A stretch of DNA of 64,000 nucleotides from Neomegalonema perideroedes DSM 15528. GTDB taxonomy: Bacteria > Pseudomonadota > Alphaproteobacteria > Rhodobacterales > Rhodobacteraceae. Location: NCBI RefSeq assembly GCF_000374145.1, contig NZ_KB893654.1, positions 330,221-394,220 on the forward strand, in the 5' to 3' direction. Both the position numbers and the translations under genes were made by a program. Shown here piece by piece: positions 37,560 through 48,367 of this stretch (its first letter is position 1; each line of letters starts with the position of its first letter). The notes below the pieces were generated by a model that was not told the DNA's origin, did no database searches, and saw only the letters and a program-made list of their open reading frames with translations.

Positions 37560-38447
37560 TCAGCTGCGCACGAGGCGCGCGTCGCGATGGCCGAGGCCGC
37601 GGACGCGGTTCAGCGCCGCCCAGCCCTGACCCTGATCCAGCACCGGCCCGACGCGGACGCGGTACCAGGTGGCGCCGCGGACCTGAGCCGGCTCGACGAA
37701 AGCCTGCTCGCCGTAGGCGCTCAGCTGACGCACGAGGCGCTCGGCGTTGGCCGGGCGGGTGAAGGCGCCGACCTGAACGTAGAACGCGCCCGAGACGGAG
37801 CCCGCGCCGTAGCTCGGCGCGGCCGGAGCCGGATTATAGATCGGCGCCGGAGCGGCGGGCTGCGTGTAGCTGTAGCTCGGGGCGGCGGGCTGAGGAGCCG
37901 GCTGCGTGTAGCTGTAGCTGGGGGTCGAGGGCTGCGCGTAGCCGTAGCTCGGGGCGGCGGGCTGAGGAGCCGGCTGCGTGTAGCTGTAGCTGGGCGTCGA
38001 GGGCTGCGCGTAGCCGTAGCTCGGGGCGGCGGGCTGAGGAGCCGGCTGCGCGTAGCTGTAGCTGGGGGTGGAGGGCTGCGCGTAGGCGTAGCTGGAGGTC
38101 GAGCCGTAATCATAGCTCGGCTGAGCGTAGCCGCCCGAGGTCGACGCCGAATAATCGTAGGCGCCGCCGAGATAGGTGCTGGAGCCCGAGGGCTGCGCGT
38201 AGCTGTAGCTCGGGGTGGAGGCCGGGACGGGCTGGGCCGTCTGAGCCTGATCCAGATAATAGGGCTCGCTCACGCTGACGACCTGACCCACCTGCTGAGC
38301 GGGGGCCGGGGCCGGGGCGGCGTAAGGCGCGCCATAAGCCTGAGCGTAGTTCGGAGCGCCGTAATAGCCCTGAGCGGCCGCCGGTCCAGCGACGACGAGA
38401 GCCAGAGCCGCGACGCTCGTCGCGCGGATTCGTGCCTGCCTCGACAT
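37560..38447 (-). CDS. Exported SPOR-domain protein with Tyr/Pro/Gln repeats
   Basis: This 295-residue protein has a signal peptide (residues 8-25), a long Ser/Tyr/Pro/Gln-rich region at ~60-215, and a C-terminal SPOR domain at ~218-295 (FYVQVGAFTRPANAERL; ATWYRVRVGPVLDQGQG). SPOR domains bind denuded glycan strands at division sites. The middle region carries three near-identical 24-residue repeats of the YGYAQPSTPSYSYTQPAPQP type. The gene stands where many alphaproteobacteria have rlpA, just upstream of dacC, but no double-psi barrel domain is present. GAGGAGAAC precedes the ATG. Confidence 0.85.
   Translation of the reverse strand: MSRQARIRATSVAALALVVAGPAAAQGYYGAPNYAQAYGAPYAAPAPAPAQQVGQVVSVSEPYYLDQAQTAQPVPASTPSYSYAQPSGSSTYLGGAYDYSASTSGGYAQPSYDYGSTSSYAYAQPSTPSYSYAQPAPQPAAPSYGYAQPSTPSYSYTQPAPQPAAPSYGYAQPSTPSYSYTQPAPQPAAPSYSYTQPAAPAPIYNPAPAAPSYGAGSVSGAFYVQVGAFTRPANAERLVRQLSAYGEQAFVEPAQVRGATWYRVRVGPVLDQGQGWAALNRVRGLGHRDARLVRS
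37879..38094 (-). repeat. Three 72-bp tandem repeats inside the SPOR-protein gene
   Basis: Units begin at 37879, 37951 and 38023. The first two differ at a single base over most of their length; the third diverges near its end. Each encodes 24 residues, so copy-number change would keep the frame. Confidence 0.9.
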
Positions 38448-43434: not shown

Positions 43435-43466
43435 CGAAAGGGCCGCCCTGATGGGGCGGCCCTTCG
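43435..43466. terminator. Bidirectional terminator after bpt
   Basis: gggccgccc pairs with gggcggccc around tgat, extended by cgaaa and ttcg, followed by GGTTTT on the plus strand. It serves the convergent bpt and PEP-CTERM-like genes. Confidence 0.85.
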
Positions 43467-43493: not shown

Positions 43494-44489
43494 TCAGGCG
43501 GCGCGGCCGCGGCGGCTGCGCAGAGCCAGCGCGCCGAGCGCGACGGCGAAGAAGGCGAGGCCGCCCGGAACCGGAACCTGTCCGCCCGAAGACGAAGAGG
43601 AGTTTCCGCCTGAGGAGGAGGAATTCCCGCCCGAGGAGGAGCCGCCGCTCGAAGAAGAGGAGGACGAACTCGACGAGGAGGAGGAGGACGAGGACGAAGA
43701 CGAGGAGGAGGACGAAGACCCGCCTTGACCGAAGGGCAGATAGACCGTGCCGTTGATCACGTCGTTGCCGCAGGTCTGAGTCCATTGGGTCTGGAAGCGC
43801 TCGCCGAGGAGGCCGCCGTCGTCGAAGGAGAAGGTCAGCGAGTCGCCGAGCACCGAGGTCCAGGTGCCGGTCCCGAGGACCTCGACGCCGTGATAATTGG
43901 CGACCTCGTCGTAAACGCCCGTGCGGACGCTGCCGGTGCTCAGATTGGCGTCGGTGATCTTCAGAAAGCGCACCGTGCCTGAATTTCCGCTCGGATTGGC
44001 CTCGATGTCGAGGGCGTAGCTCCATCCGGTCATCCGGTCGGTTTGGCCGAGGCTCTGGGGCGCGCCGAACAGCAGGTCTCCATAGCCGATCTGGCTATTG
44101 GCGCGGCCCGCGAAGGCGGTCGAGACGCTGATGCTCAGCATGCCGTCCGAGGCGCGGGTGGCGGTCAGCGAATCGACGGAGTACATCGAACCGCCGTAGA
44201 TGTCGGCGTTGCGCTGCATCGGCGCGGCGGGGCCCCAATAGGTGTCCTGCAGGGTGAAGCTGCTGACGATCGAAGCGCCGCTCGACGAATTCGACGAACC
44301 GGAGGAGCTTGAGGAGCTCGACGAGCCGGAAGATCCGCCGCTCGAATGAGGAGAGACCCAGCCGCCGCCGATTCCCGCCGAGACGGAGCCGCCGAAGAGG
44401 CTGTTGAAATCCAGAAGGGTGGCCTTGGAGGCGCCGGTCGACGCGAAAGTCATGACGGCGGCGGCGACAAGAGAGCGCCAGGTGTTCAT
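43494..44489 (-). CDS. Poly-serine protein with PEP-CTERM-like sorting tail (paralogue 1)
   Basis: This 331-residue exported protein has a signal peptide (MNTWRSLVAAAVMTFASTGA), a short Ser/Gly tract at ~45-70, a beta-rich core at ~75-250, a run of about 27 serines, and a tripartite tail: QVPVPGG, hydrophobic LAFFAVALGALAL, basic RSRRGR. This resembles PEP-CTERM/VPLPA-type exosortase substrates. Core blocks VSSFTLQDTYWGPAAP and CGNDVINGTVYLPF recur in the next gene, a tandem paralogue. The core matches no domain I know. No exosortase is in the window. Probably a surface or matrix protein. Confidence 0.82.
   Translation of the reverse strand: MNTWRSLVAAAVMTFASTGASKATLLDFNSLFGGSVSAGIGGGWVSPHSSGGSSGSSSSSSSSGSSNSSSGASIVSSFTLQDTYWGPAAPMQRNADIYGGSMYSVDSLTATRASDGMLSISVSTAFAGRANSQIGYGDLLFGAPQSLGQTDRMTGWSYALDIEANPSGNSGTVRFLKITDANLSTGSVRTGVYDEVANYHGVEVLGTGTWTSVLGDSLTFSFDDGGLLGERFQTQWTQTCGNDVINGTVYLPFGQGGSSSSSSSSSSSSSSSSSSSSSSSSGGSSSGGNSSSSGGNSSSSSGGQVPVPGGLAFFAVALGALALRSRRGRAA
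43648..43728 (-). repeat. Serine-codon tract in paralogue 1
   Basis: About 27 consecutive Ser codons, mainly mixed TCC and TCG rather than one repeated codon, followed by SG-rich spacers. Mixed codons suggest the tract is kept at the protein level rather than being a recent slippage product. Confidence 0.85.
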
Positions 44490-44651
44490 TTCATCTTCTC
44501 CCGCAAGAGGCGTCCCGATCTCAGGCGCTGCGAACCCTTCGGATGCGGCCTGAACGGGACGCGTCCTTCGCGCCCCTTCGCAAGCCCTGTCCGCAAGGAG
44601 TATCCGCGCGATCCCCTAACGGAGGCGTAAAAAGGACCGTTAACGCGCCGC

Positions 44652-44684
44652 AAAAGCCGAAAGGCCGCCTCTTGCGAGACGGCC
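44652..44684 (-). terminator. Intrinsic terminator between the two poly-serine genes
   Basis: On the minus strand GGCCGTCTC pairs with GAGGCGGCC (one G-T) around GCAA, followed by TTTCGGCTTTT. It ends the paralogue 2 transcript, so the two genes are transcribed separately. Confidence 0.82.
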
Positions 44685-44712
44685 CACCGGAGAGAAGAGG
44701 AAGAGAGGAGGA

Positions 44713-45669
44713 TCAGGCGAGGAAGCTCTGGCGACGGAAGATCATCGCGCCGAGGGCGGCGAAGATGAAGCCGAGGCCGCCGGGAACCGGAACCTGACCG
44801 CCCGAGCTGCTCGAGGAGGAGCTGCTGGAGGAGGAGGACGAAGAGGACGAGGAGGAGGACGACGACGAGCTGCTGGAGGAGGAGGAAGAGGACGAGGAGG
44901 ACGAGCTGCTGGAGCTGGTCGGGAAGGGCAGCTGCACCGTGCCGTTGATCACGTCGTTGCCGCAGGTCTGGCTCCACTGCACCTGGAAGAGGTCGCCGAG
45001 GACGCCGCCGTCGTTGAAGGAGAAGGTCAGCGTGTCGCCGAGCACCGAGGACCAGGTGCCGGTCCCGAGGACCTCGACGTTGCGGTAATTGTCGATCTGG
45101 TCATAGACCGTGCTGCGGTTGCTGCCGGTGCCCAGATTGGCGTCGGTGATCTTCAGGAAGCGCACCGTGCCCGAGGTTCCGCTCGGATTGGGCTCGATGT
45201 CGAGGGCGTAGCTCCAGCCGGTCATCGCCGAGGTCTGGCCGACGGTCTGGGGCGCGCCGAAGAGCAGGTCGCCGTAGCCGATGGAGCTGTTGGCGCGTCC
45301 GGCGAAGGCGGTCTTGATGCTGATGCTCAGCATGCCGTCCGAGGCGCGGGTGGCGTTCAGCGAGTCGATGCCGTAGGTCGAGGCGTTGCCATAGACGTCG
45401 GCGTTGCGCTGATAGGGCGCGGCGGGGCCCCAATAGGTGTCCTGAAGGGTGAAGCTGCTGACGATCGAAGCGCCGCCCGAGGAGGAGCCGCCGCTCGACG
45501 AAGAGCTGGAGCCGCCGCTCGACGAAGAGCCGGACCCGCCCGACGAGGAGCTGGAGGAGCCGAAGATTCCGCCGAACAGGCCGTCGAAATCCAGCACGGT
45601 GGCGCTCGAGGCGCCGGTCGACGCGAAGGTCATGAAAGCAGCCGCAGCAAGGGCGCGCCAGGTGTTCAT
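44713..45669 (-). CDS. Poly-serine protein with PEP-CTERM-like sorting tail (paralogue 2)
   Basis: This 318-residue paralogue of the preceding gene shares the signal peptide (MNTWRALAAAAFMTFASTGA), two early Ser/Gly blocks, and the core with SSFTLQDTYWGPAAP, SLNATRASDGMLSISIKTAF and CGNDVINGTVQLPF. About 38 consecutive serines separate the core from the tail QVPVPGG-LGFIFAALGAMIF-RRQ. Both signal and tail are kept while the serine tracts differ in length, in line with a common surface-sorting route. The conserved core Cys is single. It has its own terminator and upstream region. Confidence 0.82.
   Translation of the reverse strand: MNTWRALAAAAFMTFASTGASSATVLDFDGLFGGIFGSSSSSSGGSGSSSSGGSSSSSSGGSSSGGASIVSSFTLQDTYWGPAAPYQRNADVYGNASTYGIDSLNATRASDGMLSISIKTAFAGRANSSIGYGDLLFGAPQTVGQTSAMTGWSYALDIEPNPSGTSGTVRFLKITDANLGTGSNRSTVYDQIDNYRNVEVLGTGTWSSVLGDTLTFSFNDGGVLGDLFQVQWSQTCGNDVINGTVQLPFPTSSSSSSSSSSSSSSSSSSSSSSSSSSSSSSSSSSSSSSGGQVPVPGGLGFIFAALGAMIFRRQSFLA
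44804..44916 (-). repeat. Serine-codon tract in paralogue 2
   Basis: About 38 Ser codons mixing AGC, TCG and TCC. The use of both Ser codon families (AGC and TCN), which are not one mutation apart, argues that serine itself is selected. Confidence 0.85.
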
Positions 45670-45870
45670 CTCATCATCTCCCGCAACTTGCGCCGTTTTT
45701 GGCGCCGCGATCTGGTTTGGCGGGTCTGGAGCAATAAGCGCGCCAGTCGCGCCCGCCGTCCTCGCCGTATGACGGGAGAGAAAGCAGATTCGGCGCCAAA
45801 CCGCGGCCCGGGGGCGAAAATCGCCCGTCGGAGCCCGTCAGAGAATGTCGAAAGGCCCCGGCGGCGGCTC

Positions 45871-47449: not shown

Positions 47450-48367
47450 ATGCGCGGCTTTTTTTCCCGCAGCGTTATTCTGTCCTGCGCCGTTCTGGCC
47501 CTGACCGCCGGCTGCGCGACGAAAAGGCCGCAGACCGGCACCTCGACGAGCGCCACTGAGCTGGGCGCTTTCGGCCCCGGCGGCTTCCCGGGCGATTCTT
47601 CCGGTCTGGGCGGCGTCGGTTCGGGCGTCGGCGGCGGCTTGGCCGACGGCGCCGCGCCGGGCGGCCTCGTGATCGGGCCCGACGGCCAGATCGTCGGCGG
47701 CGGCGGCCTCGGCGGCGTCGGCGGCCAGAGCGTCGTCGGCCCGGACGGCCGCGTCTACGATCTCGGCGGCGGCTCCTCCAGCCCGAGCCTGCTCGGCCCG
47801 AGCGTGGTCGGCGGCGGCTTCGGCGCGGGCGGCGGCCTTGGGGGCGTCGGCGGCGGTCTGGGCGGCGGCGCGGGCGGCCTTGGGGGCGGCGCGATCTATA
47901 ATCCCGACGGCTCTCTGGCGGGCGGCGGATTCGGCGGCGGCGCCGGCGGTCTGGGCGCGGGCGGAACCTCGGCGGGCGGCTACAGCTTCCCCGGAGACGA
48001 CGGCTCGGCGCAATATTTCGCCGTCAACGTCGGCGACCGCGTGCTCTTCGGCTACGACAGCTCCGATCTGGACGCGCCGGCCCGCGACATCCTGCAGCGT
48101 CAGGCCGCCTGGCTGAACCTGCATCCGAACGCCTCCATCGTGATCGAAGGCCATTGCGACGAGCGCGGCACCCGCGAATACAACCTCGCGCTGGGCGCCC
48201 GCCGCGCCAATTCGGCGCGCAGCTATCTGACCTCGCTCGGCGTGGCCTCCAGCCGCGTCGAAACCATCTCCTACGGCAAGGAGCGCCCGGTTCAGGACTG
48301 CAACAGCGAATCCTGCTGGGGCCAGAACCGCCGCGCCGTGACCGTGGTGCGGTCGGCGGGCTTCTAA
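47450..48367 (+). CDS. pal: Peptidoglycan-associated lipoprotein Pal with Gly-rich insert
   Basis: Pal is the outer-membrane lipoprotein of the Tol-Pal system and binds peptidoglycan through its OmpA-like domain. The 305-residue protein has a lipoprotein signal with lipobox TAGC near residue 19. A ~130-residue Gly-rich region at ~45-180 has GLGGVGGG-type repeats. A complete OmpA C-terminal domain follows: FGYDSSDL, IEGHCDERGTREYNLALGARR and GQNRRAVTV. Typical Pal is ~165-180 residues, so the Gly-rich segment is the difference. ATG 47450 follows TGAGGAGC; a longer frame from 47246 overlaps trmFO and is rejected. Confidence 0.92.
   Translation: MRGFFSRSVILSCAVLALTAGCATKRPQTGTSTSATELGAFGPGGFPGDSSGLGGVGSGVGGGLADGAAPGGLVIGPDGQIVGGGGLGGVGGQSVVGPDGRVYDLGGGSSSPSLLGPSVVGGGFGAGGGLGGVGGGLGGGAGGLGGGAIYNPDGSLAGGGFGGGAGGLGAGGTSAGGYSFPGDDGSAQYFAVNVGDRVLFGYDSSDLDAPARDILQRQAAWLNLHPNASIVIEGHCDERGTREYNLALGARRANSARSYLTSLGVASSRVETISYGKERPVQDCNSESCWGQNRRAVTVVRSAGF

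Follow-up and report, generated by a model that had tools for sequence, protein, structure and literature searches.

Tandem poly-serine proteins of Neomegalonema perideroedes with a P-V-P variant of the PEP-CTERM tail, probable substrates of the XrtA exosortase

PEP-CTERM proteins are characterized by a C-terminal Pro-Glu-Pro motif that has been described as near-invariant (PMC1569441). The same account lists Cys, NxxR and HxxxG among the residues of the exosortase family, makes the enrichment of PEP-CTERM proteins in Ser, Thr and Asn a feature known since 2006, and records a sigma-54 site upstream of 99 of 167 proteobacterial PEP-CTERM genes, sigma-54-like sites lying at a mean distance of 71 nt (standard deviation 38.5) from the genes (PMC1569441). 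Here we analyze a stretch of 64,000 nucleotides from Neomegalonema perideroedes DSM 15528 (contig NZ_KB893654.1, positions 330,221 to 394,220; hereafter the window), in which two adjacent paralogous genes, the twins A and B, encode proteins with a signal peptide, a conserved core, long serine tracts and a C-terminal tail showing P-V-P where P-E-P would be expected. The twins are probably substrates of the exosortase XrtA, judging from their sequences and genomic context, and would best be named a P-V-P variant of PEP-CTERM, with a core so far seen only in Neomegalonema.

The twins are minus-strand open reading frames (ORFs) arranged in tandem; they are flanked by trmFO-like and ate-like genes, which belong to the GidA and arginyl-tRNA-protein transferase families, respectively. 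The upstream twin A (318 aa; 44713..45669) begins with a signal peptide of about 23 residues that by inspection ends in TGASSA (45601..45669), followed by a Ser/Gly-rich stretch (aa 36-66; 45472..45564), the conserved core, which weak models predict to be mostly beta (aa 67-249; 44923..45471), an unbroken tract of 38 serines (aa 252-289; 44803..44916) and the tail, QVPVPGG-hydrophobic-RR (aa 292-318; 44716..44796). The downstream twin B (331 aa; 43494..44489) has the same architecture, with its core at aa 72-253 (43731..44276), a Ser/Gly/Asn spacer at aa 254-301 that includes a run of 24 serines at aa 258-281 (43587..43730), and a QVPVPGG-hydrophobic-basic tail at aa 304-331 (43497..43580). 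In both, the Ser/Gly-rich stretch between signal peptide and core, which the first description of this DNA did not mention, lies inside the 41-46 residues preceding the core. An earlier note on this DNA, made from the sequence alone, had described tandem paralogues with just this succession of signal peptide, core, poly-serine and QVPVPGG-hydrophobic-basic tail, and both ORFs bear the description out, their products being 76% identical overall and 81% identical in the core. The metagenome-assembled genome (MAG) STC_130 of Neomegalonema sp. has orthologues of both (locus L022), with their order and both flanking neighbors unchanged. A signal peptide is seen by inspection in all four sequences; over residues 1-25 the A orthologues are identical and the B orthologues only 48% identical.

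Genome search found a single exosortase, on the contig of the twins and about 97 kb away from them. The earlier note had staked its reading of the tail on the presence of such an enzyme, and the one found scores as XrtA (305.8 bits vs. a cut-off of 208), possesses a C-terminal EpsI domain and retains intact catalytic residues, its segments EACAG, NFLR and HLVYG matching the family Cys, NxxR and HxxxG. The MAG likewise yielded one exosortase, also XrtA (303.7 bits). Adjoining xrtA is the XrtA-system glycosyltransferase gene stp1, whose product is over its cut-off, and 10 further ORFs lie nearby: five exceed the cut-offs of XrtA/PEP-CTERM models (an export protein, the TIGR03016 outer-membrane protein, an ATPase, a deacetylase and FemAB), two have the XrtA chain-length and tyrosine-kinase models as their top, sub-cut-off match, one is a glycosyltransferase below all cut-offs shown, and two are without match. 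With stp1 and five of the 10 further ORFs recognized in this way, N. perideroedes has an exopolysaccharide cluster of XrtA type.

The tail of the twins reads QVPVPGG in 4/4 sequences from the two Neomegalonema genomes. It extends over 27-28 residues from the Q to the C-terminus, reaches a maximal Kyte-Doolittle mean of 1.9-2.1 over 14 residues and has an Arg-containing end, thereby presenting the hydrophobic stretch and basic cluster that PEP-CTERM proteins have at their extreme C-terminus. Tails A and B are 58.6% identical overall, with GGQVPVPGG unchanged. The earlier note had also made its reading depend on other proteins with this tail; a third tail-type protein does exist in the genome, although it carries P-E-P, not P-V-P, and the reading as a sorting signal withstands both of the checks set by the note. 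This protein of 740 aa (L018:7170-9392, corresponding to G000:C1 at about 1103170-1105392, with the Pfam match at C1:1105312) has a true PEP-CTERM tail, SSGGQVPEPG, which scores 24.8 bits with TIGR02595 (cut-off 16); it is 30% Ser, with GGHGSSS repeat units and six Ser runs of 16-18 residues. It was found first, and independently of our tail profile, as the only protein over cut-off in the Pfam PEP-CTERM search of the genome. Around the variable position, twins and 740-aa protein agree in the SSGGQVP that leads up to it and in the P-G that follows. The 740-aa protein also has a CC pair near its end, and its repeat make-up is changed in the MAG version (L066).

Our tail profile was built from five tails, three of N. 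perideroedes and two of the MAG, which are recovered by construction. Run on the genome at E values up to 10, it matched the twins, the 740-aa protein and one further frame (C3, 15.2 bits) of 85 codons, which has no P-x-P tail and was rejected; run on the MAG at E values up to 1, it matched only the corresponding three proteins among the best 150 of 152 candidates scored. The two genomes thus agree in their three tail proteins. By inspection, five of the six Pfam PEP-CTERM matches in the genome (E 0.02 to 9.3), and the four tail-pattern matches, of six, that are not the twins, are no sorting tails; an ambiguous case among these is a 707-codon frame at C1:1409912, ending in TPLPPAW-hydrophobic-RREGR. 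Across 385 genomes of the class, the profile has matches at E ≤0.001 in at least eight other genomes, with at least 10 tails. The 10 outside tails among the matches listed all show P-x-P, which reads P-E-P in eight of them and P-A-P in the other two (L044 and L046), and one outside genome, G613, has both P-A-P (L044) and P-E-P (L052); a non-Glu residue in the P-x-P tail is thus not confined to Neomegalonema. By eye, a Ser/Thr/Gly-rich stretch precedes five of the 10 (L044, L045, L046, L052, L053). In L046 (genome G347) a long GGST repeat run stands right before the tail IQVPAPA, comparable to the poly-Ser stalk but made of Gly, Ser and Thr.

Upstream of A, 60 nt from its start, there is a sigma-54-like (-24/-12) site, TGGCGCGCTTATTGCT (45730..45745, minus strand), with one mismatch to TGGCACRNNNNTTGCW, which we take to be the sigma-54 consensus and used to score these sites. 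It is the sole match with one mismatch or fewer on either strand of the window, and simulated sequence with the same neighbor frequencies gives 0.33 such matches per window; hence the count is unremarkable and the placement is notable. The identical 16-mer stands 61 nt before the A orthologue of the MAG, and the site is held in a 42-nt block (45725..45766, minus strand) that is identical there. The third tail gene has TGGCTCGGCTTTTGCA 45 nt upstream of its start in both genomes; in the upstream alignment, 61 nt of perfect identity with the MAG begin at the first base of this site, and the preceding sequence has drifted. A and the third gene share, in both genomes, an upstream site of the kind reported for many PEP-CTERM genes. 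Another sigma-54-like site, identical in both genomes, lies 144-145 nt before xrtA within the coding sequence of stp1 (L016:17123-17138 and L067:7699-7714), and we give it no weight. A sigma-54-dependent response regulator about 27 kb from the exosortase (G000:C2:444666-445814; L036) is the best PrsR-like match of the genome, at a sub-cut-off score, and a candidate activator of the tail genes. Between A and B, a stem-loop (44663..44684, minus strand) without a strong T run, unlisted by the terminator scan, is kept in the MAG; it is possibly an attenuator, and if B is transcribed by read-through past it, its level may be below that of A. The terminator scan did list a terminator-like 12-bp stem (43438..43464, plus strand) in the gap that separates B from the convergent ate gene.

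In functional terms, these features raise a question: How would proteins with P-V-P enter a pathway whose usual motif is P-E-P? We consider it quite likely that the twins are secreted, processed by XrtA at QVPVPGG and delivered with their cores to the cell surface or matrix on a serine spacer. They would be secreted by the general secretory pathway and held in the inner membrane by the hydrophobic-basic tail, until XrtA, the sole exosortase detected, processed them at Q-V-P-V-P-G-G, which would replace the usual V-P-E-P. Having cut off the tail, XrtA would join the protein to the exopolysaccharide of the neighboring cluster or release it into this material, leaving the core of about 183 aa at the tip of a flexible and possibly glycosylated Ser spacer, either surface-exposed or within the matrix. 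In favor of this proposal are the lone XrtA and its gene cluster, the matching sets of three tail proteins, the conserved sigma-54-like sites before A and the third gene, the constant QVPVPGG with a spacer of nearly fixed length, and, in other genomes, the Ser/Thr/Gly-rich stretches before such tails and the pairing of P-A-P with P-E-P in G613.

Several results weigh against this proposal. The near-invariant Glu is missing from all four twin proteins, and none of the three twin-type tails scanned against curated models (those of A, B and MAG B) reaches a cut-off (TIGR02595, 16 bits; TIGR03901, 20; TIGR03382, 15.85; NF033554, 80). With TIGR02595, A scores 14.9 bits and MAG B 13.1, B being unlisted; on the whole proteins, PF07589 gives B 12.2 bits, below its cut-off of 20.7, and does not list A, and the Pfam PEP-CTERM search of the genome lists neither twin. 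Moreover, MYXO-CTERM is the top-ranked model for the tail of MAG B and is about tied with PEP-CTERM for that of A (MAG B 17.4 bits, cut-off 20; B 15.4; A 14.7 with TIGR03382, cut-off 15.85), the IPTL-CTERM and PID-CTERM models scoring more weakly. No sigma-54-like site with two mismatches or fewer is present upstream of B in either genome, and genome searches for PrsR and PrsK found none over cut-off (best scores 359.1 vs. 502.6 and 81.7 vs. 300, respectively). Since both the Pro-Glu-Pro motif and the curated scores fail, we do not class the twins as PEP-CTERM members. The suggestion that the tail is a lineage-specific variant gains support from the constant P-V-P of the four sequences, together with three scanned tails that all stay below the PEP-CTERM cut-off. 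Our literature search retrieved no paper joining Neomegalonema and PEP-CTERM, and PEP-CTERM is absent from the main text of the genome paper of Meganema perideroedes Gr1 (PMC4511698).

The loss of Glu and the low scores would be expected if the tail were an ordinary C-terminal membrane anchor, hidden from XrtA, which left the cores in the periplasm on the inner membrane. Yet a mere anchor would hardly account for the SSGGQVP and P-G flanks that link the twins to the genuine PEP-CTERM protein encoded alongside them in the genome, nor for the constancy of GGQVPVPGG in paralogue tails that have diverged so much elsewhere; a sigma-54-like site precedes A as it does many PEP-CTERM genes, and P-A-P tails occur in other genomes, once alongside P-E-P. 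We accordingly regard this explanation as rather unlikely. Still less probable, to the point of being a slim chance, is that another sorting enzyme (a rhombosortase acting on GlyGly-CTERM, a myxosortase or an unknown one) processes the tail with XrtA uninvolved. The MYXO-CTERM models do come close for all tails, and the QVPEPG tail of the 740-aa protein even passes TIGR03901 (20.7 bits vs. 20); however, that tail passes the PEP-CTERM model too, which indicates that short C-terminal sorting models overlap and cross-hit. Furthermore, none of the four twin tails contains Cys, although the MYXO-CTERM motif is said to require an invariant one (PMC11980579), and an XrtA is present, with a true PEP-CTERM protein as the partner of the twins in the same genome.

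The serine tracts, for their part, could be neutral expansions of a DNA repeat without any role, as might be suspected from the variation of the longest unbroken run across paralogues and genomes (38 in A and 24 in B of N. perideroedes, 37 and 15 in the MAG). The total length of the C-terminal spacer, instead, is almost fixed between orthologues (40/39 residues in A, where it is nearly pure Ser, and 48/49 in B, where it consists of Ser/Gly/Asn), despite changed letters in B. The codons point the same way. No single synonymous step connects AGC with TCN, and the tracts have AGC interspersed with TCC, TCG and TCT; this mixture argues for selection on serine, as had been proposed earlier from the use of AGC plus TCN, and against a simple DNA repeat, supporting the idea that serine itself has been kept. 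For comparison, the Ser codons of six other window genes (n = 113) are TCG (35%), AGC (27%), TCC (27%) and TCT (9%). In each of the two genomes, besides, every one of the three tail proteins has such serine tracts, and we find neutral expansion improbable. Of the two runs first estimated at about 27 and 38 serines, that of 38 in A is correct, whereas the unbroken run of B has 24, the 'about 27' being the start of its 48-residue Ser/Gly/Asn stretch. Serine accounts for 25.8% and 24.5% of the residues in the twin proteins, and no other open frame of at least 60 codons in the window has a Ser run of eight or more. Neomegalonema is not alone in having low-complexity sequence ahead of a PEP-CTERM tail; what stands out is how long and how pure its Ser runs are. 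Literature search found no paper connecting PEP-CTERM, exosortase and 'serine-rich', and the papers retrieved on polyserine linkers in bacterial surface proteins include none about PEP-CTERM by title or opening of the abstract.

Codon usage and divergence together bear on how the twins are expressed. The effective number of codons is 26.5 in the core of A and 31.2 in that of B, compared with 31.6 to 43.5 in 10 other window genes (an out-of-frame bamB row being excluded), a measure that is noisy in short genes and places B barely under the lowest comparison gene, that of the Pal-like protein. Synonymous divergence (dS) between the two genomes is 0.097 for the A core and 0.273 for the B core, vs. 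0.387 for trmFO and 0.375 for ate. Taken together, the codon bias and low synonymous divergence suggest high expression, chiefly of A. The ratio of nonsynonymous to synonymous divergence (dN/dS) is 0.45 in the A core, a value inflated by the low dS of A, 0.22 in the B core, 0.12 in trmFO and 0.09 in ate; raised dN/dS is common in surface proteins. We considered gene conversion between the twins as a cause of the low dS of the cores and found it unsupported, since 31 of the sites distinguishing the four cores group orthologues and three group paralogues. From the same counts, the twin duplication looks older than the split of the two genomes.

The fold of the core had been called unrecognised, and so it stays: the four cores have no family in Pfam-A, and their only NCBIfam match is XDD3 (NF041930), over residues 26-75 of the MAG B core. 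When the whole proteins were scanned for families, the only matches were the sub-threshold PEP-CTERM one of B and low-scoring ones at or near the Ser tracts. The predicted core structures were of low quality (mean pLDDT 55.5 with a single sequence as input and 48.1 with four, pTM 0.53 in both) and mostly beta; Foldseek found nothing in the PDB at E ≤0.001 with the core model. VIA-align of the first core model gave 0/997 chains at Z ≥8, the best match, at Z 6.6, being to a 50-residue portion of a group 13 allergen. Thirty of its best 50 rows (Z 4.3 to 5.6) are legume lectins, ERGIC-53/Emp47, thrombospondin, glucanases and PL7 lyases, which we take to be concanavalin-like beta-sandwiches; given the weak model and how common such sandwiches are, this resemblance may serve as a lead only and is no evidence of function. 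Two rows of photosystem PsbO (E 0.023 and 0.038) in a sequence search of solved structures were taken as chance, as were core matches at E 0.016-0.092 in nine other genomes among the 385 of the class. Relatives of the core were found in the own genome only among 292 genomes of the order, and none in plasmids or viral contigs; a search of genome contigs, by a scan that detects close relatives only, gave a single one, the MAG STC_130.

Two other proteins of the window also have repetitive stretches. In a Pal-like protein of the OmpA family (47465-48367, plus strand), the OmpA domain is preceded by a long, Gly-rich segment containing PDG-type repeats, and this segment is altered in the MAG (L022:2102-3094). 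The protein at 37560-38447 (minus strand) carries SYSYTQPAPQPAAP repeats, and its C-terminal domain is of SPOR type.

Little is known of the biochemistry of exosortases, and one detected XrtA with three tail proteins, two of which are without the near-invariant Glu, constitutes a small and clean setting for studying XrtA recognition. The finding also means that curated P-E-P models leave proteins of the twin type below cut-off. Meganema perideroedes, whose current genus name is Neomegalonema, is of applied interest, strain Gr1 being an activated-sludge filament linked to bulking (PMC4511698). In a floc-forming bacterium studied for activated sludge, overexpression of pepA, which encodes a sigma-54-dependent PEP-CTERM protein, moves exopolysaccharide from the soluble to the bound fraction (PMC9850573). 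Because of this host and of the tie between a PEP-CTERM protein and floc formation elsewhere, the twins, probably well expressed, are reasonable candidates for wastewater-relevant surface properties of the bulking filament. A bolder extension, which we hold to be doubtful, is a minimal XrtA system with three Ser-stalk substrates, in which the tracts would be dense sites of O-glycosylation or attachment, P-V-P and P-E-P would both be accepted, and abundant twin cores would form a proteoglycan-like coat, specific to the genus, around the filament and so help cause sludge bulking.

How, finally, do the twins compare with described systems? The phrase 'exosortase-dependent surface protein' was not found in our literature search; by that name NCBIfam has XDD3, for which the single sub-cut-off core match (15.8 bits vs. 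80, in 1/4 cores) provides a lead, not membership. The flocculation-associated PEP-CTERM protein PepA (NF033554), presumably one family with the pepA product mentioned above, matches the tail of B with 14.0 bits vs. a cut-off of 80 and has no match to the whole twin proteins. VPLPA-CTERM proteins, the XrtD substrates of TIGR04152, resemble the twins in that the residue between their prolines is not Glu and small residues come next; unlike in that system, no VPLPA-CTERM model is among the matches of the scanned tails, and the exosortase passes as XrtA, the XrtD model giving it 146.5 bits, under the cut-off of 400. Closest is the PEP-CTERM/XrtA (EpsH) system (TIGR02595/PF07589; TIGR03109), with which the twins share a signal peptide as judged by inspection, the extreme C-terminal P-x-P/hydrophobic/basic tail and the Ser-rich body, and the genome shares XrtA, the exopolysaccharide cluster and, for A and the third protein, a sigma-54-like site ahead of the gene. 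The twins depart from it in P-V-P-G-G instead of P-E-P, in sub-cut-off scores and in very long pure Ser tracts, and the genome departs from it in having only three tail proteins found and no PrsK or PrsR over cut-off. Such a balance makes the twins a variant of a known sorting system rather than a new system.

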